A DNA stretch of 64,000 nucleotides from Halosimplex litoreum (GTDB lineage Archaea > Halobacteriota > Halobacteria > Halobacteriales > Haloarculaceae), in contig NZ_CP065856.1 in NCBI RefSeq assembly GCF_016065055.1, forward strand, positions 1,487,836 to 1,551,835. The letters run 5' to 3'. Under the pieces are notes generated by a model that was not told the origin of the DNA, did not search any database, and was given only the letters and a program-made list of their open reading frames with translations. Made by a program: the position numbers and the translations under genes. Shown one piece after another: positions 12,575 to 24,353 of this stretch (position 1 is its first letter; the number at the start of each line of letters is the position of its first letter).

Positions 12575-13225
12575 CTACGACCGGGCCGCTTCGACGGCCT
12601 CGACGAACGCCGCCGCCGACTCGCGGACGCCGTCCCAGTCGTCGCTCGCGATGGCGTCGTAGTCCACGAGCGCCGAGCCCGCGCCCACTGCGACCGCACC
12701 GGCGTCGAAGTAGTCGGCGACGTTGTCGGTGGAGACGCCGCCGGTCGGCATGATCGGCACGTCGCCCAGCGGCCCCTGGAGCGCGGAGATGTGGCCTGGA
12801 CCCACGGTCGAGGCCGGGAACATCTTCAGGATGTCCGCGCCGGCCTCCATCGCCTCGGCGGCCTCGGTCGGCGTCATCACGCCGGGGATGCAGACGACGC
12901 CCGCGCGGTTGCAGACGTCGATCACGTCCTCGTTGAGGTTGGGCGCGAGGACGAACTCCGCGCCGGCCTCGATGACGTTCCGGGCGGCGGCGGCGTCCAT
13001 CACGGTTCCGGCGCCGACGATGGCGTCGGTGCCCTCCATCGCGCGGTCCACGTCTGCGATCATCTCGCTGCAGCGCGTCGCGTCGGCCGTGACCTCCAGG
13101 GCCGTGACTCCGCCCTCGTGGACGGCCTCGGCGACCGGCACGATGTCGTCCTCGTCGATACCCCGCAGGACCGCCGTCACGCCGCTGTCGACGATGCGCT
13201 GCTGGATCTCGTGTTTGTTCGTCAT
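12575..13225 (-). CDS. KDPG aldolase (2-dehydro-3-deoxyphosphogluconate aldolase)
   Basis: A 216-residue class I aldolase that splits 2-keto-3-deoxy-6-phosphogluconate into pyruvate and glyceraldehyde 3-phosphate, the last step of the semiphosphorylative Entner-Doudoroff pathway used by haloarchaea. Visible family features: VGAGTVMDA, the Schiff-base lysine in DILKMFPAS, and the phosphate-binding MPTGGVSTDN. The ATG at 13225 gives the usual family length; an ATG nine codons earlier would add MPPPVAGAR. The enolase-superfamily dehydratase at 21.6 kb could belong to the same pathway, but the two are not linked in an operon. Confidence 0.88.
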   Translation of the reverse strand: MTNKHEIQQRIVDSGVTAVLRGIDEDDIVPVAEAVHEGGVTALEVTADATRCSEMIADVDRAMEGTDAIVGAGTVMDAAAARNVIEAGAEFVLAPNLNEDVIDVCNRAGVVCIPGVMTPTEAAEAMEAGADILKMFPASTVGPGHISALQGPLGDVPIMPTGGVSTDNVADYFDAGAVAVGAGSALVDYDAIASDDWDGVRESAAAFVEAVEAARS

Positions 13226-13352
13226 ACGCGCACCTGCGACCGGCGGGGGCAAAAGGGTACCCTGTCCCGCCGAGACCTGCGCGACCCGGTCCCCGACCGG
13301 TGATCCCTCCGATCGTCGACATCCTTATTCGCCGACGGCGCCTACCTCGGGT

Positions 13353-14934: not shown

Positions 14935-15915
14935 CTACCGCAGCGCGTCCCGCCGCTCGTCGGCGTCGAGGGCCACGTCGCCGGCGACGTGGCGACTACA
15001 GCGTTCGCACTCGTAGGAGACGCCGCCGTCGTCGTAGGTGCGGACGGCGGTCCCGAACAGGAACAGGGCGTCCTTCTGGCGGCGCGCGATGACGGCGTCG
15101 GCGTCCTCCCCGCAGTTGGGACACCAGTCCTTGTCGGGGGCGGGCTCCTGCCAGGTGATGCGGTGGCGGCCGATCGTCGCGTCGGCGTGGGCCTCCTCTT
15201 TCGAGGTCTGGACGACGGCCTCGGGCGGGACGGGGTCCGAGTCGACGACGTTGTCGAAACCGCTCTCGGCGGCGGTCGTGACGGAGACGTACGGACCGAC
15301 GCTCACGCGGTTGTCGCGGCCGACGAAGAAGACGGTGGCGTCGACGCCTCGTCCCTCGATGCGGACCTCGTTGTCCCAGCCGACGACGTAGACGGTCAGG
15401 TCGTGTTTGCCCTCGGTCACCTCGACGGTGTTTTTCGCGCCGCGGACGCTCACGCCGTCGCGCGGGTCGCGAGCGTCGCGGGTGTGGTCCCAGCCGGTGA
15501 CGGTCACGTCGTAGCCCGCCGGATCCGCGGTCGGCGTCGCGGCGCCGTCGTGGAACACCTGCTCGGCACCCGCCGGGTCTATCGCCTCGGCGGCGCCGCC
15601 CGCGACGAACACGTCTTCGACGCCCCGGATCACGACGTCGCCGGTGGCACCCTCGACGTAGCCGTCCTCGATGTCGCCCGTGACTTCGGTCGCCGCGTCG
15701 GGAGCGCTCTCGGTGGGGTCGTTCCCGCCGTCGCCGGGTGGGACGACGTCCGTGTAGACGTACTCGGCGTCGGCCAGGCGGAGGGTCCCGGCGACGCCGT
15801 CGGGACCGACGAACACGTCCGCGGCGCCGCGGAGACCGACCGGCGCCTCGTGACTGCCGGCGAGTCGCACGTCGCCGGAGTAGCGCTCGGTGCTGGCGTC
15901 GGAGGTATCGCTCAT
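14935..15915 (-). CDS. Beta-helix-like protein with C-terminal zinc ribbon
   Basis: A 326-residue soluble protein I cannot assign to a named family. Residues 10-230 show short repeated strands (DVFVGPDGVAGTLRL, DVFVAGG, HDLTVYVVGWDNEVRIEG, ATVFFVGRDNRVSV) typical of a right-handed beta-helix as in DUF3060-like proteins. The C-terminal 60 residues carry CPNCGEDAD and YECERCSRH, two pairs that would form a zinc ribbon. The ATG at 15915 sits just downstream of the shared promoter region with the divergent lipoprotein gene. It may belong functionally with the polyamine-synthase-like operon across that promoter; this is inference. Confidence 0.65.
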   Translation of the reverse strand: MSDTSDASTERYSGDVRLAGSHEAPVGLRGAADVFVGPDGVAGTLRLADAEYVYTDVVPPGDGGNDPTESAPDAATEVTGDIEDGYVEGATGDVVIRGVEDVFVAGGAAEAIDPAGAEQVFHDGAATPTADPAGYDVTVTGWDHTRDARDPRDGVSVRGAKNTVEVTEGKHDLTVYVVGWDNEVRIEGRGVDATVFFVGRDNRVSVGPYVSVTTAAESGFDNVVDSDPVPPEAVVQTSKEEAHADATIGRHRITWQEPAPDKDWCPNCGEDADAVIARRQKDALFLFGTAVRTYDDGGVSYECERCSRHVAGDVALDADERRDALR

Positions 15916-16020
15916 TGTGAACTCAGGTATCGTCACCCTACCGGGGGTCTCCACTTGAATCCCATCCCACCGTCCGCCGGTTCGACGGCCGCCGAACGTT
16001 TCCCACAGGTGAAACGATAA

Positions 16021-16028
16021 TATAAAGA
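16021..16028 (+). promoter_or_regulatory. TATA-like box for the lipoprotein operon
   Basis: ATATAAAG lies about 32-39 bases upstream of the ATG at 16060, inside an AT-rich island (16015-16033) in otherwise GC-rich DNA. This would give a very short leader. It is the only clear TATA-like element in the 144-base gap between the two divergent genes. Confidence 0.55.
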
Positions 16029-16059: not shown

Positions 16060-16773
16060 ATGAAGCGCAGAAGCTTCGTACGCGGCAGTGCCGGGCTGGC
16101 GGTCGGTGCGGCGCTGACCGGCTGCCTTGGGACCGGGGGGAGCAACTCCCCGCCGCCCAGAAAGTCCGACGTGTTCGCGGACGTCGCCCTCCAAGAGACG
16201 ACGCTGCAGATCCAGTTGCTGTCCGAGATCGAGATCGAGACGCGCCGGCAGAACCAGAGCAACCTCGGCGGCGGGGCGGTCGCCGCGCTCCTTCCGGTCG
16301 GTCGCGCTCGCGCGGCAAAGGGCGCCGCCGGTCGCGGCACCGGCGGCTACTCCTCGGCACCGAAACACTCGCGCCACGGGTGGGCCATCTGGCACGGCGG
16401 GGCCTACAGCGACGACTGGCGGGACGACCACGACGACGAGTTGCGGATGGCCGACGCCTCGGTCGCGACGCTCGGCGTCGCCTACCTGGGGACCGACGAC
16501 GAGTACGAGAACGACGCGCCGGGACCCGGTCCCGGGTCGGTGTCCTGGGACGAGACCTGGGACGACCCGGAGGGCGGCGCCGACCTGACGGCCGACCTCA
16601 CCGGGGTCTCGCCCGGCGACGCCGTCCGCGAGGGCTGGTACCGGGTCGGGACGGAACTGGTCTCCGCGGACGGCTCGACGAACTACGGCTGGCAGGCCGT
16701 CGACATGGAGGTCGACAGCGGTCTCGGCGGCGCGCAGATGGACAAGGCCTGGTACGTCAAGCCCAGAGTGTGA
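16060..16773 (+). CDS. Tat lipoprotein, first gene of a spermidine-synthase-like operon
   Basis: A 237-residue exported protein: twin-arginine signal MKRRSFVRGSAG, lipobox LTGCLG (Cys 22), then a mainly polar domain with HGWAIWHGGAYSDDW and a C-terminal WYRVGTELVSADGSTNYGWQ. I do not recognise a domain. It is 13 bases upstream of the spermidine-synthase-like gene in the same direction. In actinobacteria, membrane spermidine synthases often sit next to small lipoproteins (DUF4247), so an analogous role is possible but not shown here. Confidence 0.75.
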   Translation: MKRRSFVRGSAGLAVGAALTGCLGTGGSNSPPPRKSDVFADVALQETTLQIQLLSEIEIETRRQNQSNLGGGAVAALLPVGRARAAKGAAGRGTGGYSSAPKHSRHGWAIWHGGAYSDDWRDDHDDELRMADASVATLGVAYLGTDDEYENDAPGPGPGSVSWDETWDDPEGGADLTADLTGVSPGDAVREGWYRVGTELVSADGSTNYGWQAVDMEVDSGLGGAQMDKAWYVKPRV

Positions 16774-16786
16774 GCCACTGACCCCG

Positions 16787-18706
16787 ATGGTCCGCGACAG
16801 CGACGACGACGCCGGCCGGGCGGACGCACCACCGGGCCGTTCAGCCGACGACGAGCCGTCGCTGTCTTCGGGTCCTCGCCTCACCGACCGGCGACTGTTG
16901 CTCGGGCTCACCTTCGTCGTCGCGTTCTGCTCGATCGCCTACGAACTGGTCTACTCGGAGCTGCTGACGGTGTTCTACGGCGGCACGGTCCTGCGCTACT
17001 CGATCACCATCGGCCTGTACCTGTTCTCGATGGGCGTCGGATCCTTCCTCTCGGCCCACCTCGACGACCCCGCGGGGAACTTCCTCCGGACGGAGGTGTA
17101 CCTCGCGCTGGCCGGCCCCGCCGGCGCGGGGTTCATGATCGCGCTGAACGCGTTCCCCGACGTGACCCTGACCGTCGGTCGGCTCGCGCTGAAGGAGCCG
17201 CTGACGCTCGGGCTCGCCCACGTGCCGATCCTGGTCGTCGGCGTGCTCTCTGGGTTCGAGATTCCGCTGTTGAACGAGCTGGTCGAGCACCGCGAAGAGA
17301 CGCTGTTCGCCGCGCTCGGTGGCGTCTACCCCCGAAGGGTCGTCCGCGGCGTCCTCGGTGTGTTCTTCTCGGTCTCCGAGGCGGAGGGGCGGTCGTTCTC
17401 GGAGGTGCTGGGCGTCGACTACCTCGGCGGCCTCGCCGGGACGGTCGTCTACGCGCTGGTCCTGTACCCCCGCTACGGCCTCGTCGTGTCCGTGCTGGTG
17501 CTCGGACTGCTGAACGGGCTCGCCGCGCTGGCGTTCGCGGCGTGGTCGGCTCGGGCGCCGGCCGCCCGCGGCGCCGACCGGTCGTTCTCGCTGGCGCGGT
17601 GGCGCGGGGTCGTCCTCGCGGGACTGCTGCTGACCGGCACCTACGGCGGGCTGGTCGCCAACGCCGGTGTCGTCGACCGGACGGTCACCGGCGCGTACAT
17701 GGGCGACCGCATCGAGAGCGAGTACCAGCCCGGTAAGGCCGAAGTGACCGTCACCGGCTTCGAACGCACCCGCTACCAGCGGATCACCACCTACCGCCGC
17801 GACGTGGCCGGCGACCCCGGTACGGAGACCTGTCTCCGCCTCGACGGCGCGATCCAGCTCTGTGAGAGCTGGGTCGACTCCTACCACGCCGGCCTCGTCG
17901 ACGTGCCGCTGTCGGCCTACGTCGACCGGTCGGGGACCGTCCGCGCGAGCCCGGGGTCAGACGGGCGGGCGAGCGACGTCGCCCGGACCGGCTCCGACGG
18001 GACCGACACTGCACGCACCGACCCGGAGACGGCCGGGAACGCGTCGTTCGACGTGTTGCTCGTCGGCGGCGGCGACTACATCGCCGTCGACCGCCTGCGC
18101 GACTACGAGGTGAGCGTCGACCAGGTCGACATCGACGGGGAGTTTCTCGCGTACTCGCGAAACGAGTCGCGCTTCGCCCGCTACAACGACGACGCCTTCG
18201 AGTACGACCGCCTGAACACCACCGTCGGCGACGCCTACAACTACCTCCGCGGCACCGAGCGGCGCTACGACCTGGTCCTGCTGGACGTGCCGGGCGCTCG
18301 CAGCGACGACGCCCTGTCGCTGTACTCGACGGAGTTCTACCGCCTGCTCCGGGGCCACCTGACCGACCGCGGGGTCGTCGCCACCTGGGCGTACTCGAAG
18401 TACTGGTTCCCCCAGCACCACAAGGTGTACGTCGAGACCGTCCGCGAGGCCGGCTTCGACCGGTATCTCCCCTACTCGGTGTACGAGGACCCGGACGGCG
18501 ACGACGAGCTGGAACGCGGCGAGCGGTTCTACCTGCTTTCGGACGGCCCGGCACCGAAACCGAACGTCTCCCGCGCCCGCAGCGACTACCTCGACGCCGT
18601 CGCCGACCGCTTCGAGCGACTGGACTGGCGGCCGATCCCGGCCTACCGCGGCGTCGAACCGAACAGCGTCTTCGACCCCAACTACGACGTGATCGTCGAC
18701 CCATGA
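16787..18706 (+). CDS. Membrane-anchored spermidine-synthase-like protein
   Basis: A 639-residue protein with about seven to eight N-terminal membrane helices (residues 35-305) and a C-terminal aminopropyltransferase-like Rossmann domain. The spermidine-synthase signature is visible: LDGAIQLCESWVDSYHAGLV, then VLLVGGGDYIAVDRL (the usual GGGDG is GGGDY) and VDQVDIDGEFL. The catalytic DxxDPxGP loop reads LDVPGARSDDAL, so the expected catalytic Asp pattern is altered and the natural substrate may not be putrescine. It overlaps the next gene by 4 bases (ATGA) and follows the lipoprotein by 13 bases. Confidence 0.78.
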   Translation: MVRDSDDDAGRADAPPGRSADDEPSLSSGPRLTDRRLLLGLTFVVAFCSIAYELVYSELLTVFYGGTVLRYSITIGLYLFSMGVGSFLSAHLDDPAGNFLRTEVYLALAGPAGAGFMIALNAFPDVTLTVGRLALKEPLTLGLAHVPILVVGVLSGFEIPLLNELVEHREETLFAALGGVYPRRVVRGVLGVFFSVSEAEGRSFSEVLGVDYLGGLAGTVVYALVLYPRYGLVVSVLVLGLLNGLAALAFAAWSARAPAARGADRSFSLARWRGVVLAGLLLTGTYGGLVANAGVVDRTVTGAYMGDRIESEYQPGKAEVTVTGFERTRYQRITTYRRDVAGDPGTETCLRLDGAIQLCESWVDSYHAGLVDVPLSAYVDRSGTVRASPGSDGRASDVARTGSDGTDTARTDPETAGNASFDVLLVGGGDYIAVDRLRDYEVSVDQVDIDGEFLAYSRNESRFARYNDDAFEYDRLNTTVGDAYNYLRGTERRYDLVLLDVPGARSDDALSLYSTEFYRLLRGHLTDRGVVATWAYSKYWFPQHHKVYVETVREAGFDRYLPYSVYEDPDGDDELERGERFYLLSDGPAPKPNVSRARSDYLDAVADRFERLDWRPIPAYRGVEPNSVFDPNYDVIVDP

Positions 18707-19284
18707 CATCCGAGACCCTCCAGTTCGTCTACGGCGACGCCCCGCCCGACGACGACGTGCGCGTGTTCGACTCGCTGACCCGCGAGCTGCTCGGCGCCGA
18801 GTTCACCTTCCGCGTCGTCGGCAGTTCCCACTACGTCAGCGCCCCTGCCTACGACTTCCACGAGCTGTCCACCTGCGACCCCGTCGACGCCGACGGCGCG
18901 ACGACGCTGCGCCTCGACGGGCCGACGGTGGACGACGCCGATCCGTCGGAGCCCGCGGCCGACGGCACCGGCGGTTCGGACGGTCGCCGTCGCCTCACCT
19001 ACGCGGCCGACGGGCTGGCCTGTGCGACGCGCGTCGAGCGCCGCCCGCTCAGGGCGTTCCCCGCGGACGGCGCGTTCGACGTGTCCTATCGGTTCGGCGA
19101 GGACGCCTACACCACGATCGACCTCGCTCCCGACGGCTACGAGACCTTTCACACATACCCCGAGTTCGACCTCGCGCTGTACACGAAGACGACCTTCGCG
19201 TCCGTTCCCGGCGGAGCGCTCGCGGACGCGACCGACGGCGACGCGCGACGCCGCGCGGACCGGACCGGCCAGCCGACCGACTGA
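18703..19284 (+). CDS. Uncharacterised protein coupled to the spermidine-synthase-like gene (possibly DUF2617-like)
   Basis: A 193-residue soluble protein with no signal peptide or membrane segment, translated through an ATGA overlap with the preceding gene. The N-terminal third contains FTFRVVGSSHYVSA, reminiscent of the start of DUF2617 proteins, which neighbour membrane spermidine synthases in actinobacteria; this likeness is from memory and weak. The middle is an acidic linker. The C-terminal part (FDVSYRFGEDAYTTIDLA, YETFHTYPEFDLALYTKT) looks like a beta-rich domain. Tight coupling suggests that it works with the synthase-like enzyme. Confidence 0.65.
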   Translation: MTSETLQFVYGDAPPDDDVRVFDSLTRELLGAEFTFRVVGSSHYVSAPAYDFHELSTCDPVDADGATTLRLDGPTVDDADPSEPAADGTGGSDGRRRLTYAADGLACATRVERRPLRAFPADGAFDVSYRFGEDAYTTIDLAPDGYETFHTYPEFDLALYTKTTFASVPGGALADATDGDARRRADRTGQPTD

Positions 19285-19348
19285 GCCGGCCGGACGAGGC
19301 CGTCAGCGTCAGCAATATTTATGTTCCGTGCTTCTCGTGTGAGAAAAC

Positions 19349-21535
19349 ATGACAGGTAGAGGGGACGGGAGCTCGGAGCGCGGTGCGGTCGAGGCCTTCG
19401 AGGCGGCGAACGGGGTGGGCGACGCCGGAGGCGACGTGGAGGCGGCCACCGAGGTGCTTCGCTGCTCGCCCGACGAGCGGGCCGAGCGGGGGGTCTCCGA
19501 CGACGACGTGCGGGCGGCGTTCCTGACGGTCGTCCGGGAGGGCGACGCCGACGCGAAGGACTTGCGGGGCGTCGAACTGCCGGCCATCGAACTGGACCGG
19601 CTGACCGTGGACGGGGCCGACCGCCACCCGGTCGACCTCCGGGGGGCGACGGTCGCGTCGTTGTCGGCGCGGTTCGCGACGATCCGCCTGCCGCTCCGGC
19701 TGGACGACGCGACGCTCGGCGACGTGACCTTCGACGAGGCCCACGTCGAGGAGGCGGTCCTCGCCGACGGCGCGACCGTCACCGGCGACTTCGAGGCCTT
19801 CGAGGCGAGGTTCGCCGGCGACGTAGAGTTCGACGGCGCGACCTTCGAAGGTCGGTTCGACGTCGACGAGTCGACGTTCGCCAACGACGTGACGTTCGAC
19901 GGCGCGACCTTCGATGGAGTCGTCGAGGCCCGGGCTGCCGAGTTCTACGGCGACTCGAATCTCCTCGACGACAACACGAGCTTCACCGGCGCCACCTTCG
20001 CGGACCTGGCGGACTTCCGGCAGGCCGAGTTCGGCTTCACCCACTTCGAGCGAGCGACCTTCGCCGACGAGGCGAACTTTCAGGAGGCCAGCTTCGACGG
20101 CGACGCCGAGTTCGACGAGGCGGTCTTCGAGGCGTTCGCCGACTTCGACGAGGCCCGCTTCGGCGGCGACACCGGGTTCGCCGACGTGGCCTTCACCGGC
20201 GACGCCGATTTCCGCGGGGCGGCCTTCTCCGGCCGCGAGCGCGCGCTCGACGAGGACGCCACTTTCGCCGGCTCGACGTTCGGCGGCGACGCCGACTTCC
20301 GCCACGCCCGCTTCCGGTTCGTCACCTTCGCCGAGGTGGCCTTCGAGGGGCGCGTACACTTCGAGGAGGCGGAGTTCGACGCCGACGCGACGTTCGCCGA
20401 CGCTCGCTTCGCGGCCGAGACGGACTTCGACGAGGCGCGGTTCCGGGAGGACGCCGACTTCTCGGCGGTCGAGTTCGCCGCCCGCGCCGTCTTCCGCGGC
20501 GCGGAGTTCACCGGCGGCGCCAACTTCCTGGAGGACGACCTGACCTTCGAGGGCGCCCACTTCGGCGCCGACGCCGACTTCCACAACGCCGAGGTCACGT
20601 CGGCGAACTTCGTCGACACCACCTTCGGCGGCGAGATCGACTTCAGCGGCGCCAGCTTCTCCGAGCGCATCGACTTCGAGGCCAGCCAGGTCGACGGCGA
20701 CGCCTGGGTCGATTTCACCCGCGCGAAGATCGTCTCCGGCCGCATCGCCCAGCCCGCCGAGAACTGGGTGCGCTACGACCTGACCCTCGCGAGTCTGGGC
20801 GACGTGGAGTTGGTCGCCGCGGCCGACGAGGACCACCGTCGCCTGCTGGATTTCTTCCGGTTCTGTCGCACTGAGTTCACCGAGTTCGACGGCCACGAGT
20901 TCGACTTCAGCGCCCACCGGGAGTACCTCGACCGCAACGCCTGGGCGATCCACGAGTTCCACGAACCGCCCGACGCCGACCCCGACTACGAGCTGGCGAT
21001 GACGCCCGAGGTGACCGAGACCACCTACCTCAAGGCCAAACAGAGCGCCGCCGCCGTCGGCGACATGAAGGTCGCCGGCGAGTTCCGCGTCAAGCGCCAG
21101 CAGTACAGCCGCGCGAAGAACCTCGAAGTCGCCCGCGACGACTCGGCCGCGACGTGGACCCGGACCAAGAACCTCGGCCGCGCCGCCGAGAACTACTTTC
21201 TCGGGGTCACCTGCGGCCACGGGATGCGGCCCATCCGGATCGGCTTCGCGTTCGTCCTCGCGCCGCTGCTGTACGTGCCGTTCTACGCGTTCGGCGGCGG
21301 CCCGTTCCTGACCGCGGCGGGCCAGCTGTCCGTCGCGGAGGCGTTCACGACGGACGGGCTGGCGACGCTGTTCGACGTGGCCCGCTTCAGCTACATCTCC
21401 TACACCACCATCGGCTACGGCTTCCTCGGCCCCGAGGGCCGGCTCGCCGAGGTGCTGGCCGCCAGTGAGGCGTATCTCAGCGTCGTCCTCTCGGCGCTGC
21501 TCGTCTACGCGCTGGTCAAGCGCTCGGAGATGTGA
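19349..21535 (+). CDS. Pentapeptide-repeat protein fused to a K+-channel pore
   Basis: A 728-residue protein. Residues about 75-480 are dozens of five-residue repeats of the A(D/N)FxxA type (VTFDGATFDG, ADFDEARFGG, ANFQEASFDG), which build a quadrilateral beta-helix. After a helical linker, residues 620-728 form a two-helix pore: a first helix (IRIGFAFVLAPLLYVPFYAF), a pore loop SYTTIGYGFLGPEG with the potassium filter TIGYG, and a second helix (LSVVLSALLVYALVK). It is therefore probably a K+ channel with a large repeat domain as sensor or scaffold. A TATA-like AATATTTATG at 19313-19322 is about 27 bases upstream, so it has its own promoter 65 bases after the previous operon. A 633-codon open frame on the other strand is only a codon-bias shadow. 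Confidence 0.85.
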   Translation: MTGRGDGSSERGAVEAFEAANGVGDAGGDVEAATEVLRCSPDERAERGVSDDDVRAAFLTVVREGDADAKDLRGVELPAIELDRLTVDGADRHPVDLRGATVASLSARFATIRLPLRLDDATLGDVTFDEAHVEEAVLADGATVTGDFEAFEARFAGDVEFDGATFEGRFDVDESTFANDVTFDGATFDGVVEARAAEFYGDSNLLDDNTSFTGATFADLADFRQAEFGFTHFERATFADEANFQEASFDGDAEFDEAVFEAFADFDEARFGGDTGFADVAFTGDADFRGAAFSGRERALDEDATFAGSTFGGDADFRHARFRFVTFAEVAFEGRVHFEEAEFDADATFADARFAAETDFDEARFREDADFSAVEFAARAVFRGAEFTGGANFLEDDLTFEGAHFGADADFHNAEVTSANFVDTTFGGEIDFSGASFSERIDFEASQVDGDAWVDFTRAKIVSGRIAQPAENWVRYDLTLASLGDVELVAAADEDHRRLLDFFRFCRTEFTEFDGHEFDFSAHREYLDRNAWAIHEFHEPPDADPDYELAMTPEVTETTYLKAKQSAAAVGDMKVAGEFRVKRQQYSRAKNLEVARDDSAATWTRTKNLGRAAENYFLGVTCGHGMRPIRIGFAFVLAPLLYVPFYAFGGGPFLTAAGQLSVAEAFTTDGLATLFDVARFSYISYTTIGYGFLGPEGRLAEVLAASEAYLSVVLSALLVYALVKRSEM

Positions 21536-21574: not shown

Positions 21575-22804
21575 TCAGACGAGTTCCTCGCCGTCGACGA
21601 GGTATCGCTCGGCCACGTCGAAGTCGATCTCGATCCCGAGACCGGGCCCCTCGGGGAGGTCGATCTGGCCGTCCTCGATGACGTCGCCGTCCTCGCCGGT
21701 GCGGGAGACCAGGTCCTCGAACCACGGCACGTCGAAGGCGTGGTACTCCAGGGCGACGAAGTTCGGGACCGAGGCGGCGGCGTGGGCGGCCGCCACGGTT
21801 CCGACCGGGCCCTGGATGTTGTGAGCGACGATGGGCACCCCTTCCAGGTCACAGAGCGTGGCGATCCGCCGGAAGTCACGGAGCCCGCCGCAGTTGTGCG
21901 GGTCCGGCGCGGCCACGTCCAGCCCCTCCGCGTCGAGCATCTCTTTGAACTCGCCGGGGTCCCGGAGGTTCTCGCCGGTCATGATCGGGCAACTGGTCGC
22001 TTCCCGGACCCGGCGGTGGGCGTCGTACTTCCGGGGGGGCACTGGGTCTTCGAGCCACCCCAAGTCGTACGGTTCGAGTTCGTTCGCGAGTCGCGTGGCG
22101 GTCTCGACGGTGAAGTTCCAGTGCAGGTCGAAGCCCAGGTCCACGTCGTACCCGATCTCCTCGCGGACGGCCTCGACGAGCGAGGCCTTGTGTTCGATGG
22201 CGGCGTTGTCCAGCCGGCGGGCGGCGGTGTCCACGTCGGCGTGGGTGCGCACGTCCAGATCGAATTTCAGCGCGTCGAAGCCCGCGTCGACGACCTCGCG
22301 GGCGGCCTCGGCGTACGACTCCGGTGTGTAGACCTCGCGGGGGTCGACCGTGCCGGACTGGGCCTCGCCGAGCGACTCGCCGCCGTGAGTGTCGCAGTAC
22401 ACCCGGACCGCGTCCCGGTACTTTCCGCCCAACAACTCGTAGACGGGGACGTCAAGCACCTTGCCCTTGATGTCCCACAGCGCCATCTCGACGCCGGGGC
22501 CGGGCTCCCACATCACGTCGCGCACCCGCTCGATATCGAGGGGGTTCTGTCCTTCGAGGCGTCCGGGGTCGTTCGGGCCGTCGCCGTGGACCTCGCCGTA
22601 ACCGACGATTCCGGCGTCGGTCTCGACTTTTACGATCCCCCACGGGAAGTTCCCCTGCAGGACCATCGTCGAGACGTCGGTGATCGCGAGGTCGCGCTCG
22701 GGCGGGCGGTGGGTCTCGTCGGTGGTGAAATCCATCCACGGGACGCCGCCGCCCGGTGGGATGACGTACTCGGGTGTGTCGTCGTCTGTCATGCGTGAGT
22801 CCAT
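21575..22804 (-). CDS. Enolase-superfamily sugar-acid dehydratase (mandelate racemase/muconate lactonizing family)
   Basis: A 409-residue barrel enzyme of the mandelate-racemase subgroup. Metal ligands are seen in order: Asp in DLGFDLHWN, Glu in WLEDPVPPR, Glu in MTGENLRD. The acid/base His is in VAHNIQGP, paired with the Asp in APDPHNCGG. The DxH after the first ligand resembles gluconate, galactonate and mannonate dehydratases, so it probably dehydrates a sugar acid to a 2-keto-3-deoxy acid. Gluconate dehydratase of the haloarchaeal Entner-Doudoroff route is one candidate. A second ATG lies four codons in; a TATA-like stretch near 22826-22833 fits the first one. Confidence 0.8.
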   Translation of the reverse strand: MDSRMTDDDTPEYVIPPGGGVPWMDFTTDETHRPPERDLAITDVSTMVLQGNFPWGIVKVETDAGIVGYGEVHGDGPNDPGRLEGQNPLDIERVRDVMWEPGPGVEMALWDIKGKVLDVPVYELLGGKYRDAVRVYCDTHGGESLGEAQSGTVDPREVYTPESYAEAAREVVDAGFDALKFDLDVRTHADVDTAARRLDNAAIEHKASLVEAVREEIGYDVDLGFDLHWNFTVETATRLANELEPYDLGWLEDPVPPRKYDAHRRVREATSCPIMTGENLRDPGEFKEMLDAEGLDVAAPDPHNCGGLRDFRRIATLCDLEGVPIVAHNIQGPVGTVAAAHAAASVPNFVALEYHAFDVPWFEDLVSRTGEDGDVIEDGQIDLPEGPGLGIEIDFDVAERYLVDGEELV

Positions 22805-24095: not shown

Positions 24096-24353
24096 ATGAC
24101 CACCAAGACGATCTCGCTCGCCGAGGAGGCGTACGAGCGCCTCGCGGCGGAGAAGCGCGAGGGAGAGAGCTTCAGCGACGTGGGGAAGCGTTTGGTGGGC
24201 GAACGATCGTGGACGGAGGTCGCCGGTATCTGGAGCGACGGAACCGACGAGGTCGAGGCAGCGATCGAAGACGGTCGCGTCCGCTCGCGGTCTCGTCGTG
24301 AGCGTCTCGGCGACGATATCGACGACGTCGTGTACGGTACGCCCGAAGAATGA
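24096..24353 (+). CDS. VapB-type antitoxin (DUF217 family)
   Basis: An 85-residue protein with the N-terminal pattern TTKTISLAEEAYERLAAEKREGESFSDV, typical of the ribbon-helix-helix DUF217/COG1753 antitoxins, followed by a flexible acidic and basic tail that would wrap the toxin. Its stop overlaps the start of a VapC-like reading frame by 4 bases, the normal arrangement for vapBC. The antitoxin looks intact while its partner is broken, so it may survive only as an orphan regulator. Confidence 0.8.
   Translation: MTTKTISLAEEAYERLAAEKREGESFSDVGKRLVGERSWTEVAGIWSDGTDEVEAAIEDGRVRSRSRRERLGDDIDDVVYGTPEE

Follow-up and report, generated by a model that had tools for sequence, protein, structure and literature searches.

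A recurrent five-gene cassette of haloarchaea with a candidate aminopropyl-transfer function and a DUF2617 protein resembling AdoMet decarboxylase

The genes for a Tat-type lipoprotein (LIPO), a membrane spermidine-synthase-like protein (SYN), a small DUF2617 protein (D2617), a pentapeptide-repeat K+ channel (CHAN) and a beta-solenoid/zinc-ribbon protein form a recurrent haloarchaeal cassette, one copy of which lies in the 64,000-nucleotide stretch of the Halosimplex litoreum genome analysed here (the window). Profile comparisons support the homology of DUF2617 to AdoMet decarboxylase (AdoMetDC), to which a predicted model, not decisive alone, also points, and we give an even chance to the reading of this locus as an aminopropyl-transfer cassette, in which the DUF2617 protein and SYN would act at the envelope with the channel and the lipoprotein as partners. 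The likeness of DUF2617 to AdoMetDC and the predicted outward position of the SYN domain are new points, absent from the first-pass annotation of this DNA.

Gene content and recurrence of the cassette

The open reading frames of the five genes are present where the first-pass annotation had placed them:

14935..15906, reverse strand: DUF3060-like beta-solenoid protein with a C-terminal zinc ribbon (CxxC...CxxC), divergent in the window
16020..16027, forward strand: TATA-like element ATATAAAG of the LIPO-SYN-D2617 operon, read from the sequence
16060..16773, forward strand: LIPO, lipoprotein of 237 aa with an RR motif and lipobox TGC
16787..18706, forward strand: SYN, 7-TM spermidine-synthase-like protein of 639 aa with a C-terminal synthase-like domain
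18703..19284, forward strand: D2617, small protein of 193 aa (DUF2617)
19314..19323, forward strand: TATA-like element AATATTTATG of the channel gene, read from the sequence
19349..21535, forward strand: CHAN, 728 aa, 2-TM K+-channel pore domain joined to a domain of pentapeptide repeats
21407..21421, forward strand: K+ selectivity filter of CHAN, T687-I-G-Y-G691, T[IV]GYG in the members viewed

The gap of 13 nt between LIPO and SYN and that of -4 nt between SYN and D2617 (a 4-nt ATGA overlap) bear out the tight operon claimed for these three genes, and the start of CHAN 64 nt past D2617, preceded by its own TATA-like element AATATTTATG, agrees with the separate promoter proposed for the channel. 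The element ATATAAAG lies about 33 nt from the LIPO ATG, a spacing that would match leaderless haloarchaeal transcripts. A sigma-70 promoter scan of the locus gave no match, as expected in archaea.

LIPO, SYN and D2617 are contiguous in 44/45 loci and all five genes occur together in 39/45, so the linkage is beyond chance; some of these loci are near relatives, and the independent spread is that of SYN over 21 of the 87 sampled genera. A LIPO homologue lies 5' of SYN in every one of the 45 loci, and the channel lies no more than 5 kb from SYN in 40, which confirms across the 21 genera the recurring neighbourhood that had been expected. The gene of the beta-solenoid/zinc-ribbon protein (also typed as DUF7351-like) keeps to this distance in 42/45 loci and has the same direction as SYN in 26/45, and its membership, at first only conjectured, is thereby upheld across the 21 genera. 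SYN and DUF2617 share an identical set of genomes (42/293) and are found on the same 12 plasmids. Channel relatives are present in 76/293 genomes versus 42/293 for SYN, many of them without SYN. No sixth recurrent neighbour was detected, no gene of at least 80 aa being common to more than 8 of the 45 loci; PspA, DUF350 and DUF4178 were not recurrent neighbours of SYN in these loci.

CHAN contains ten Pentapeptide_3 stretches (E=3.3e-43), and its match to Ion_trans_2 (E=0.003, 17.8 bits) is below the cut-off of 22.5. The residues T687, G689, Y690 and G691 are invariant in the channel alignment, which gives the TxGYG pattern. DUF3060 was matched in 23/28 relatives of the beta-solenoid/zinc-ribbon protein.

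The invariant residues of the LIPO family include R34, R92, A100-P101, W120, W193, R195, W211 and W231. LIPO matched no Pfam family beyond a weak TAT signal, and no PDB sequence. Its proposed assignment to DUF4247 (PF14042) did not hold, as 0/33 relatives matched at E<=1 and nothing in the genome did so at E<=10; a remote homology between the two may exist. A comparison of LIPO with the lipoprotein of an Alteromonas operon likewise showed no similarity (prob 0.7%).

The membrane spermidine-synthase-like protein

The following features were assigned within SYN:

16892..17662, forward strand: transmembrane domain, about residues 36-292, 7 helices by hydropathy, N-in/C-out by loop charges (positive-inside rule)
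18065..18076, forward strand: GGGD (427-430), motif of the site for decarboxylated AdoMet (dcAdoMet), D430 invariant
18284..18295, forward strand: catalytic loop D500-V-P-G503, in which an invariant Gly stands in place of the general-base Asp

SYN matches Spermine_synth (PF01564) with E=5.2e-12 and 46.1 bits, above the curated cut-off of 22.9, and PRK03612 with E=1e-65, below the cut-off; a search of the PDB with the SYN profile matched aminopropyltransferases (E=1.7e-22). The alignment to solved aminopropyltransferases extends across GGGD, VDID and the D482 strand, and the dcAdoMet-site acids D430, D448 and D482, aligned with those of the solved enzymes, are invariant. The motifs GGGDY and LDVPGARSD are present as first quoted, and the alteration of the catalytic loop seen in the latter is a family trait: Gly503 occurs in 45/45 SYN sequences, so that the canonical DxxDP with its catalytic Asp becomes DxPG, while bacterial membrane relatives retain the Asp (DFPDP / DLPDP). 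Since this Asp is absent, SYN may not transfer aminopropyl groups. W534 and Y536 are invariant in the pocket region.

The enzyme domain of SYN is predicted to face outward. Mean numbers of K+R are 2.3, 1.4, 5.3 and 3.1 in the inside loops and 0.1, 0.7 and 0.3 in the outside ones, and the domain predicted to be exposed bears an invariant Cys pair (C349/C359). Sequons are enriched in this domain (ratio 2.26); they are weak evidence of topology, as the lipoprotein control was not enriched (1.06). The AF2 model of SYN, built from 6 sequences, was too poor (pLDDT 41) and served for a rough helix count only. An outward domain that uses dcAdoMet would require dcAdoMet to cross the membrane, which counts against aminopropyl transfer on that side. 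Two bacterial relatives of SYN carry an annotated speD within the same operon, and the Novosphingobium operon encodes an amine oxidase whose N-terminus resembles that of a Tat lipoprotein.

DUF2617 and AdoMet decarboxylase

The similarity of 18703-19284 to DUF2617, suspected in the first-pass annotation, was established through the family: all 31/31 scanned relatives match PF10936 at E<=1 (best E=8.8e-10), some of them are annotated as DUF2617, and the window protein alone scores 15.9 bits, under the cut-off of 22.3. A six-frame family search of the host genome did not pick up the window protein; the DUF2617 family search also matches Corynebacterium glutamicum and Haloferax volcanii.

The D2617 profile matches the archaeal AdoMet decarboxylase (SpeD) profile with E=2.1e-5. 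In hhalign comparisons with SpeD the whole of D2617 scored 36.3, with shuffled controls at about 10 +- 2, and its C-half 35.4, for which shuffling of the columns gave 9.8 +- 1.9; the N-half scored 14.8 against 10.3 +- 2.4, which is not significant alone. Six residues are invariant across 45 D2617 sequences, of which S42, H43 and C58 lie in the N-half and T137, H150 and E154 in the C-half:

18826..18828, forward strand: Ser42, proposed precursor of the pyruvoyl group, within G-[E/S]-S-H, invariant in 45/45, N-half register to SpeD ESH
18874..18876, forward strand: Cys58, proposed proton-donor cysteine, invariant in 45/45, aligned to the SpeD catalytic Cys
19111..19164, forward strand: C-half T137...H150-T-Y-P-E154, aligned by hhalign to SpeD [ST]...H-T-W-P-E

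A second hhalign solution places S42-H43 and C58 onto the catalytic Ser-His and Cys of SpeD, in an N-half register that is not significant alone. The residue preceding S42 is Glu in only 14/45 D2617 sequences, and in SpeD in 13/13 aligned. Loss of the catalytic Ser and Cys from D2617 was considered and rejected, as candidates for both sit in the N-half. The resulting distribution of residues over two halves resembles that in class-2 AdoMetDC of eukaryotes; internal duplication was undetectable when the two halves of D2617 were compared by hhalign.

Other searches point in the same direction with varying strength. The sole PDB sequence match of the DUF2617 profile is the AdoMetDC proenzyme 2iii (E=0.26). 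None of the D2617 relatives exceeds the cut-off of AdoMet_dc (PF02675), and 1/31 matches it at all (E=0.058). In the VIA comparison of the D2617 AF2 model (pLDDT 79), ranks 1-4 are taken by AdoMetDC/prozyme chains, the best being 1msv (Z 7.7, 137 residues, 3.9 A) and the others reaching Z 5.8-6.2 against at most 5.5 for unrelated chains; all these values are under 8, and alone they may mean merely a common arrangement. Foldseek gave no confident match for the model. No SpeD above the cut-off was found in the 42 SYN/DUF2617 genomes.

Proposed function and alternative explanations

In the proposed aminopropyl-transfer cassette, D2617 would be a compact two-halved AdoMetDC homologue, whose N-half may provide S42 as the pyruvoyl residue and C58 as the proton donor, and whose C-half may supply the processing Thr, His and Glu (T137, H150, E154). 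It probably self-cleaves and yields dcAdoMet in the cytosol. SYN, anchored by its 7 TM helices, would bind dcAdoMet in the synthase-like domain and transfer the aminopropyl group. With the general-base Asp changed to Gly and with W534 and Y536 invariant, the pocket is remodelled, so that the acceptor is presumably not simply putrescine; and because the domain is predicted to lie on the same side as the Tat lipoprotein, a cell-surface location is probable for the acceptor or the product. The cytosolic/membrane response side may consist of the pentapeptide K+ channel together with the beta-solenoid/zinc-ribbon protein. The fuller version, namely that DUF2617 is a minimal prokaryotic class-2 AdoMetDC feeding an outward aminopropyltransferase with a cell-surface acceptor to which a dedicated K+ channel is coupled, is tentative and, taken as a whole, doubtful.

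The loss of the general-base Asp from all 45 SYN sequences and the invariant Trp/Tyr of the pocket region would also suit a sensor, in which SYN, as a pseudo-aminopropyltransferase, has an extracellular ligand (AdoMet, a polyamine or some other cation), DUF2617 is a non-cleaving prozyme-like binder, and both, with the lipoprotein, report to the often adjoining K+ channel (40/45 loci). The dead AdoMetDC paralogue of trypanosomes, the prozyme, sets a precedent (PMC5201418), the VIA matches of D2617 include AdoMetDC/prozyme entries (Z<8), and early work cited in PMC8394153 reported halobacteria without polyamines. Yet every would-be catalytic position of DUF2617 is invariant, whereas the prozyme is without the pyruvoyl residue, and the genomes are without a recognisable AdoMetDC partner; we regard a sensor as unlikely, though as the strongest of the competitors. 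A little less likely is an ordinary cytosolic pathway, in which DUF2617 makes dcAdoMet, from which SYN transfers the aminopropyl group to a soluble intracellular amine, for instance agmatine, to give a non-standard product, and in which the channel and the lipoprotein are stress genes with a loose link to the pathway. The retained dcAdoMet site of SYN is consistent with it, as are the agmatine and cadaverine made by H. volcanii and the membrane SpeE of this species, HVO_B0357, with GGGD(W/Y) (PMC6267482). It conflicts with the consistent positive-inside pattern of the 7 TM helices, which places the SYN domain outside, and with the loss of the acceptor-site Asp, and it leaves the tight five-gene linkage without explanation.

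That the H-T-x-P-E motif arose by chance on a similar beta-sandwich, DUF2617 being a small enzyme or a binding protein of separate descent, is improbable. Significance of the sequence match is confined to the C-half, Foldseek is without a match and the VIA Z is middling; but Pfam/PDB HMM, profile-profile and structure routes all name AdoMetDC among thousands, and the speD-carrying operons of the two bacterial SYN relatives argue the same way. Direct block of the K+ channel by a SYN-made polyamine, as first suggested for this locus, fits the adjacency of the channel in 40/45 loci, and is nevertheless very improbable, given the excess of genomes with channel relatives (76) over those with SYN (42) among the 293, an acceptor site unlike that of a polyamine synthase, and a product that is only putative.

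To return to the aminopropyl-transfer cassette, the absence of recognisable SpeD from the 42 genomes leaves their spermidine-synthase homologues without a known source of dcAdoMet. If DUF2617 is an AdoMetDC, it fills this gap, and one of the Pfam families of unknown function acquires a role; as a prokaryotic two-halves AdoMetDC, it would also be relevant to the origin of the eukaryotic class-2 enzyme. An outward-facing aminopropyltransferase, if real, would represent envelope chemistry of a new kind. As a genetic model with both a DUF2617 match and HVO_B0357, Haloferax volcanii is suited to direct testing.

Comparison with known systems

A survey of PSP systems described bacterial 7TM-spermidine-synthase operons comprising SYN, DUF350, DUF4178 and a lipoprotein, with or without PspA, and variants with DUF4247, DUF2617 and a K+ channel (PMC11237479), so the polyamine context given in the first-pass annotation is in print; of that annotation as a whole, DUF2617, the altered loop and the recurring neighbourhood stand, and the lipoprotein as DUF4247 is unsupported. 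The haloarchaeal cassette has in common with these operons the membrane SpeE, a lipoprotein, DUF2617 or SpeD, and the K+ channel. It differs in its pentapeptide channel, the DUF3060/zinc-ribbon protein, a lipoprotein without a known family, the lack of a sixth recurrent neighbour and the lost catalytic Asp of SYN.

With spermidine synthases (PF01564; 1uir, 1inl) SYN shares the domain, GGG[DE], the ribose-binding acid and the later Asp strand; it departs from them in the 7-TM anchor, the change of DxxDP to DxPG[A/V/I] and the invariant Cys pair, and has W and Y at the Q-S-T-S-P segment of its bacterial relatives.

D2617 resembles class 2 AdoMetDC (human 1msv) and class 1b SpeD (PF02675) in the C-half profile match T..H-T-Y-P-E and in the candidate Ser-His and Cys of the N-half, in a layout like that of class 2. 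It is smaller, about 150-210 aa against longer two-domain enzymes; the outer helices are mostly missing from its model, the Glu before the Ser is not conserved and its sequence does not reach the cut-off of PF02675. A SpeD fusion of the duplication type was not detected in extant archaea (PMC10407285). The AdoMetDC prozyme of T. brucei is akin to D2617 in that AdoMetDC/prozyme entries are among the top structural matches of the latter (VIA Z<8), but the prozyme is without the pyruvoyl residue, whereas DUF2617 retains the candidate Ser, Cys and His.

Genes and recurrence of the cassette

The genes assigned to a possible polyamine-channel module in the first-pass annotation, whose positions coincide exactly with open reading frames (ORFs), lie in a Halosimplex-like haloarchaeal genome of 4.16 Mb:

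14935-15906, minus strand: divergent ORF, beta-solenoid/zinc-ribbon (DUF7351-like) protein
16060-16773, plus strand: ORF, Tat-type lipoprotein (LIPO)
16787-18706, plus strand: ORF, membrane spermidine-synthase-like enzyme (SYN)
18703-19284, plus strand: ORF, small DUF2617 protein (D2617), ATGA overlap with SYN
19349-21535, plus strand: ORF, pentapeptide-repeat K+ channel (CHAN)

Since LIPO and CHAN are each preceded by a TATA-like element ~30 nt before the start codon, a promoter of its own is plausible for CHAN. The cassette is flanked by genes of a KDPG/KHG-type aldolase (12575-13252) and an enolase-superfamily dehydratase (MR_MLE, 21575-22804), looking like sugar-acid catabolism genes; a VapB-type antitoxin gene occupies 24096-24353.

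Within the order, 42 of 293 genomes carry a SYN relative, spread over 21 of 87 genera. Among the 45 loci used for neighbourhood and conservation counts, LIPO is upstream of SYN in all and D2617 downstream in 44, the exception (L063) being ended by a contig border, while the DUF3060/zinc-ribbon (DUF7351) gene and CHAN lie within 5 kb of SYN in 42 and 40 loci, respectively. The complete set is present in 39 loci (in one direction in 24), which bears out the module as a recurring neighbourhood. LIPO-SYN-D2617-DUF7351-CHAN is the most frequent order in other loci, and therefore the divergent gene of the window normally belongs to the same run. No sixth recurrent gene was found across the 45 loci. 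A separate profile search for D2617 returned the same 42 genomes as for SYN, and on plasmids both occur on identical 12 haloarchaeal records. CHAN relatives are more widespread (76/293 genomes), and the channel family also exists apart from the cassette: near full-length pentapeptide-K+ channel relatives with no SYN adjoining in the genome or contig are present in G152, G035, G075 and G283 (contig C15).

A Halorussus plasmid (G114, contig C2; loci L059 and L060) carries two cassette copies; in that at the contig start SYN is broken by frameshift or stops, and its D2617, DUF7351 and CHAN match scores equal those of the other copy. L061 (6092-7590) and L064 (6063-7562) have a tandem pair of lipoprotein genes upstream of SYN. 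A single relative of the beta-solenoid/zinc-ribbon protein has a weak match (E=0.027) to the Toastrack domain (DUF4097), which belongs to PSP-type envelope-stress loci.

Probable relationship of DUF2617 to AdoMet decarboxylase

The proposed likeness of LIPO to DUF4247 gained no support from profile searches, in which no match was found in 33 relatives or in the genome. The DUF2617 assignment held: all 31 relatives match (best E=8.8e-10), the window protein itself being sub-threshold.

Two hints, each non-significant by itself, concerned S-adenosylmethionine decarboxylase (AdoMetDC, SpeD): a match of one D2617 relative to Pfam AdoMet_dc (E=0.058) and the sole match of the relatives' profile to PDB sequences, AdoMetDC proenzyme 2iii (E=0.26). 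Profile-profile alignment with archaeal SpeD gave E=2.1e-5, and the C-terminal half scored 35.4 vs. 9.8 ± 1.9 for column-shuffled SpeD. With the structure model (pLDDT 79), VIA ranks 1-4 were AdoMetDC or AdoMetDC/prozyme chains (Z 7.7, 6.2, 6.0 and 5.8, values below 8 not being proof) and unrelated chains reached at most 5.5; a Foldseek search was uninformative on its own.

In the C-terminal half, F131...A135-x-T137...Y-E-T-x-H150-T-Y-P-E154 aligns with SpeD F-x-P-x-G-[VI]-[ST]...H-T-W-P-E, and in the N-terminal half G-[E/S]-S42-H43...C58 falls on A-E-S-H...C (the second-best hhalign solution, non-significant by itself). All 45 D2617 sequences share S42, H43, C58, T137, H150 and E154, and they show no conservation at the C-half position aligned with the pyruvoyl serine of SpeD. 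The register appears to make chemical sense. In eukaryotic class 2 AdoMetDC two class-1b units are fused and just the first is cleaved, and SpeD fusion was not detected in extant archaea (PMC10407285); in this register D2617 would have the same layout as the eukaryotic enzyme, with a serine candidate in the N-half that is not conserved in the C-half. Grouping of DUF2617 with AdoMetDC is well supported and highly probable for haloarchaea, to which this claim is confined.

AdoMet_dc was absent above the cut-off from all 42 SYN genomes, the controls being positive in the expected species. Both bacterial plasmid operons compared encode an annotated speD together with a membrane SYN relative: Novosphingobium (SPFH, DUF4178, DUF350, SYN, FAD amine oxidase, speD) and Alteromonas (SYN, speD, toxic-anion-resistance protein, DUF4178, DUF350). 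These two observations suggest that DUF2617 fills the SpeD slot in haloarchaea.

Synthase-like domain and predicted topology of SYN

The SYN domain aligns with solved aminopropyltransferases at E=1.7e-22. The acids D430, D448, D482 and D500, presumably on the side of decarboxylated AdoMet (dcAdoMet), are invariant, as are W534 and Y536, and Gly503 occupies in 45/45 sequences the place of the DxxDP Asp, the general base in spermidine synthases. Unlike haloarchaeal SYN, bacterial relatives retain DFPDP/DLPDP and Q-S-T-S-P. The donor site looks kept and the acceptor site altered. A second membrane spermidine-synthase paralogue, elsewhere in the genome of the window (L002 1084-2709, C1:3521792; 541 aa), with a GGGG motif and without the DxxDP Asp, resembles the 'fused MFS/spermidine synthase' type.

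Hydropathy indicates seven helices, to which a poor structure model lends weak support, and loop charges alternate according to the positive-inside rule, fitting N-in/C-out. The hairpin bearing the invariant cysteines C349 and C359 would be well suited to an extracellular disulfide; LIPO and the Novosphingobium amine oxidase, which has a Tat-like start and matches Amino_oxidase at E=1.9e-12, also look exported. Because of these features an outward-facing domain seems the better reading; dcAdoMet would then have to reach it across the membrane.

Proposed function and comparison with known systems

Gene content, linkage, conservation, residue changes and the lack of a recognisable SpeD are demonstrated. 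Beyond these, we propose that DUF2617 acts, rather probably, as an active pyruvoyl decarboxylase of AdoMet. SYN may then move the aminopropyl group onto a non-standard acceptor, a step we favour slightly, as we do, by a similarly small degree, its location outside the membrane. Far more tentatively, the channel might respond to, or compensate, the resulting surface or ionic change. The main rival explanation is that two dead enzymes form a sensor.

Precedent for such operons comes from the PSP survey (PMC11237479), whose bacterial variants include DUF4247, DUF2617, a K+ channel, DUF350 and polyamine enzymes. That literature, in which membrane SpeE operons, DUF2617 within them and K+ channels nearby are already published, appears to hold no description of the five-gene haloarchaeal cassette, of the Asp-to-Gly change common to all 45 SYN sequences or of the topology predicted here.
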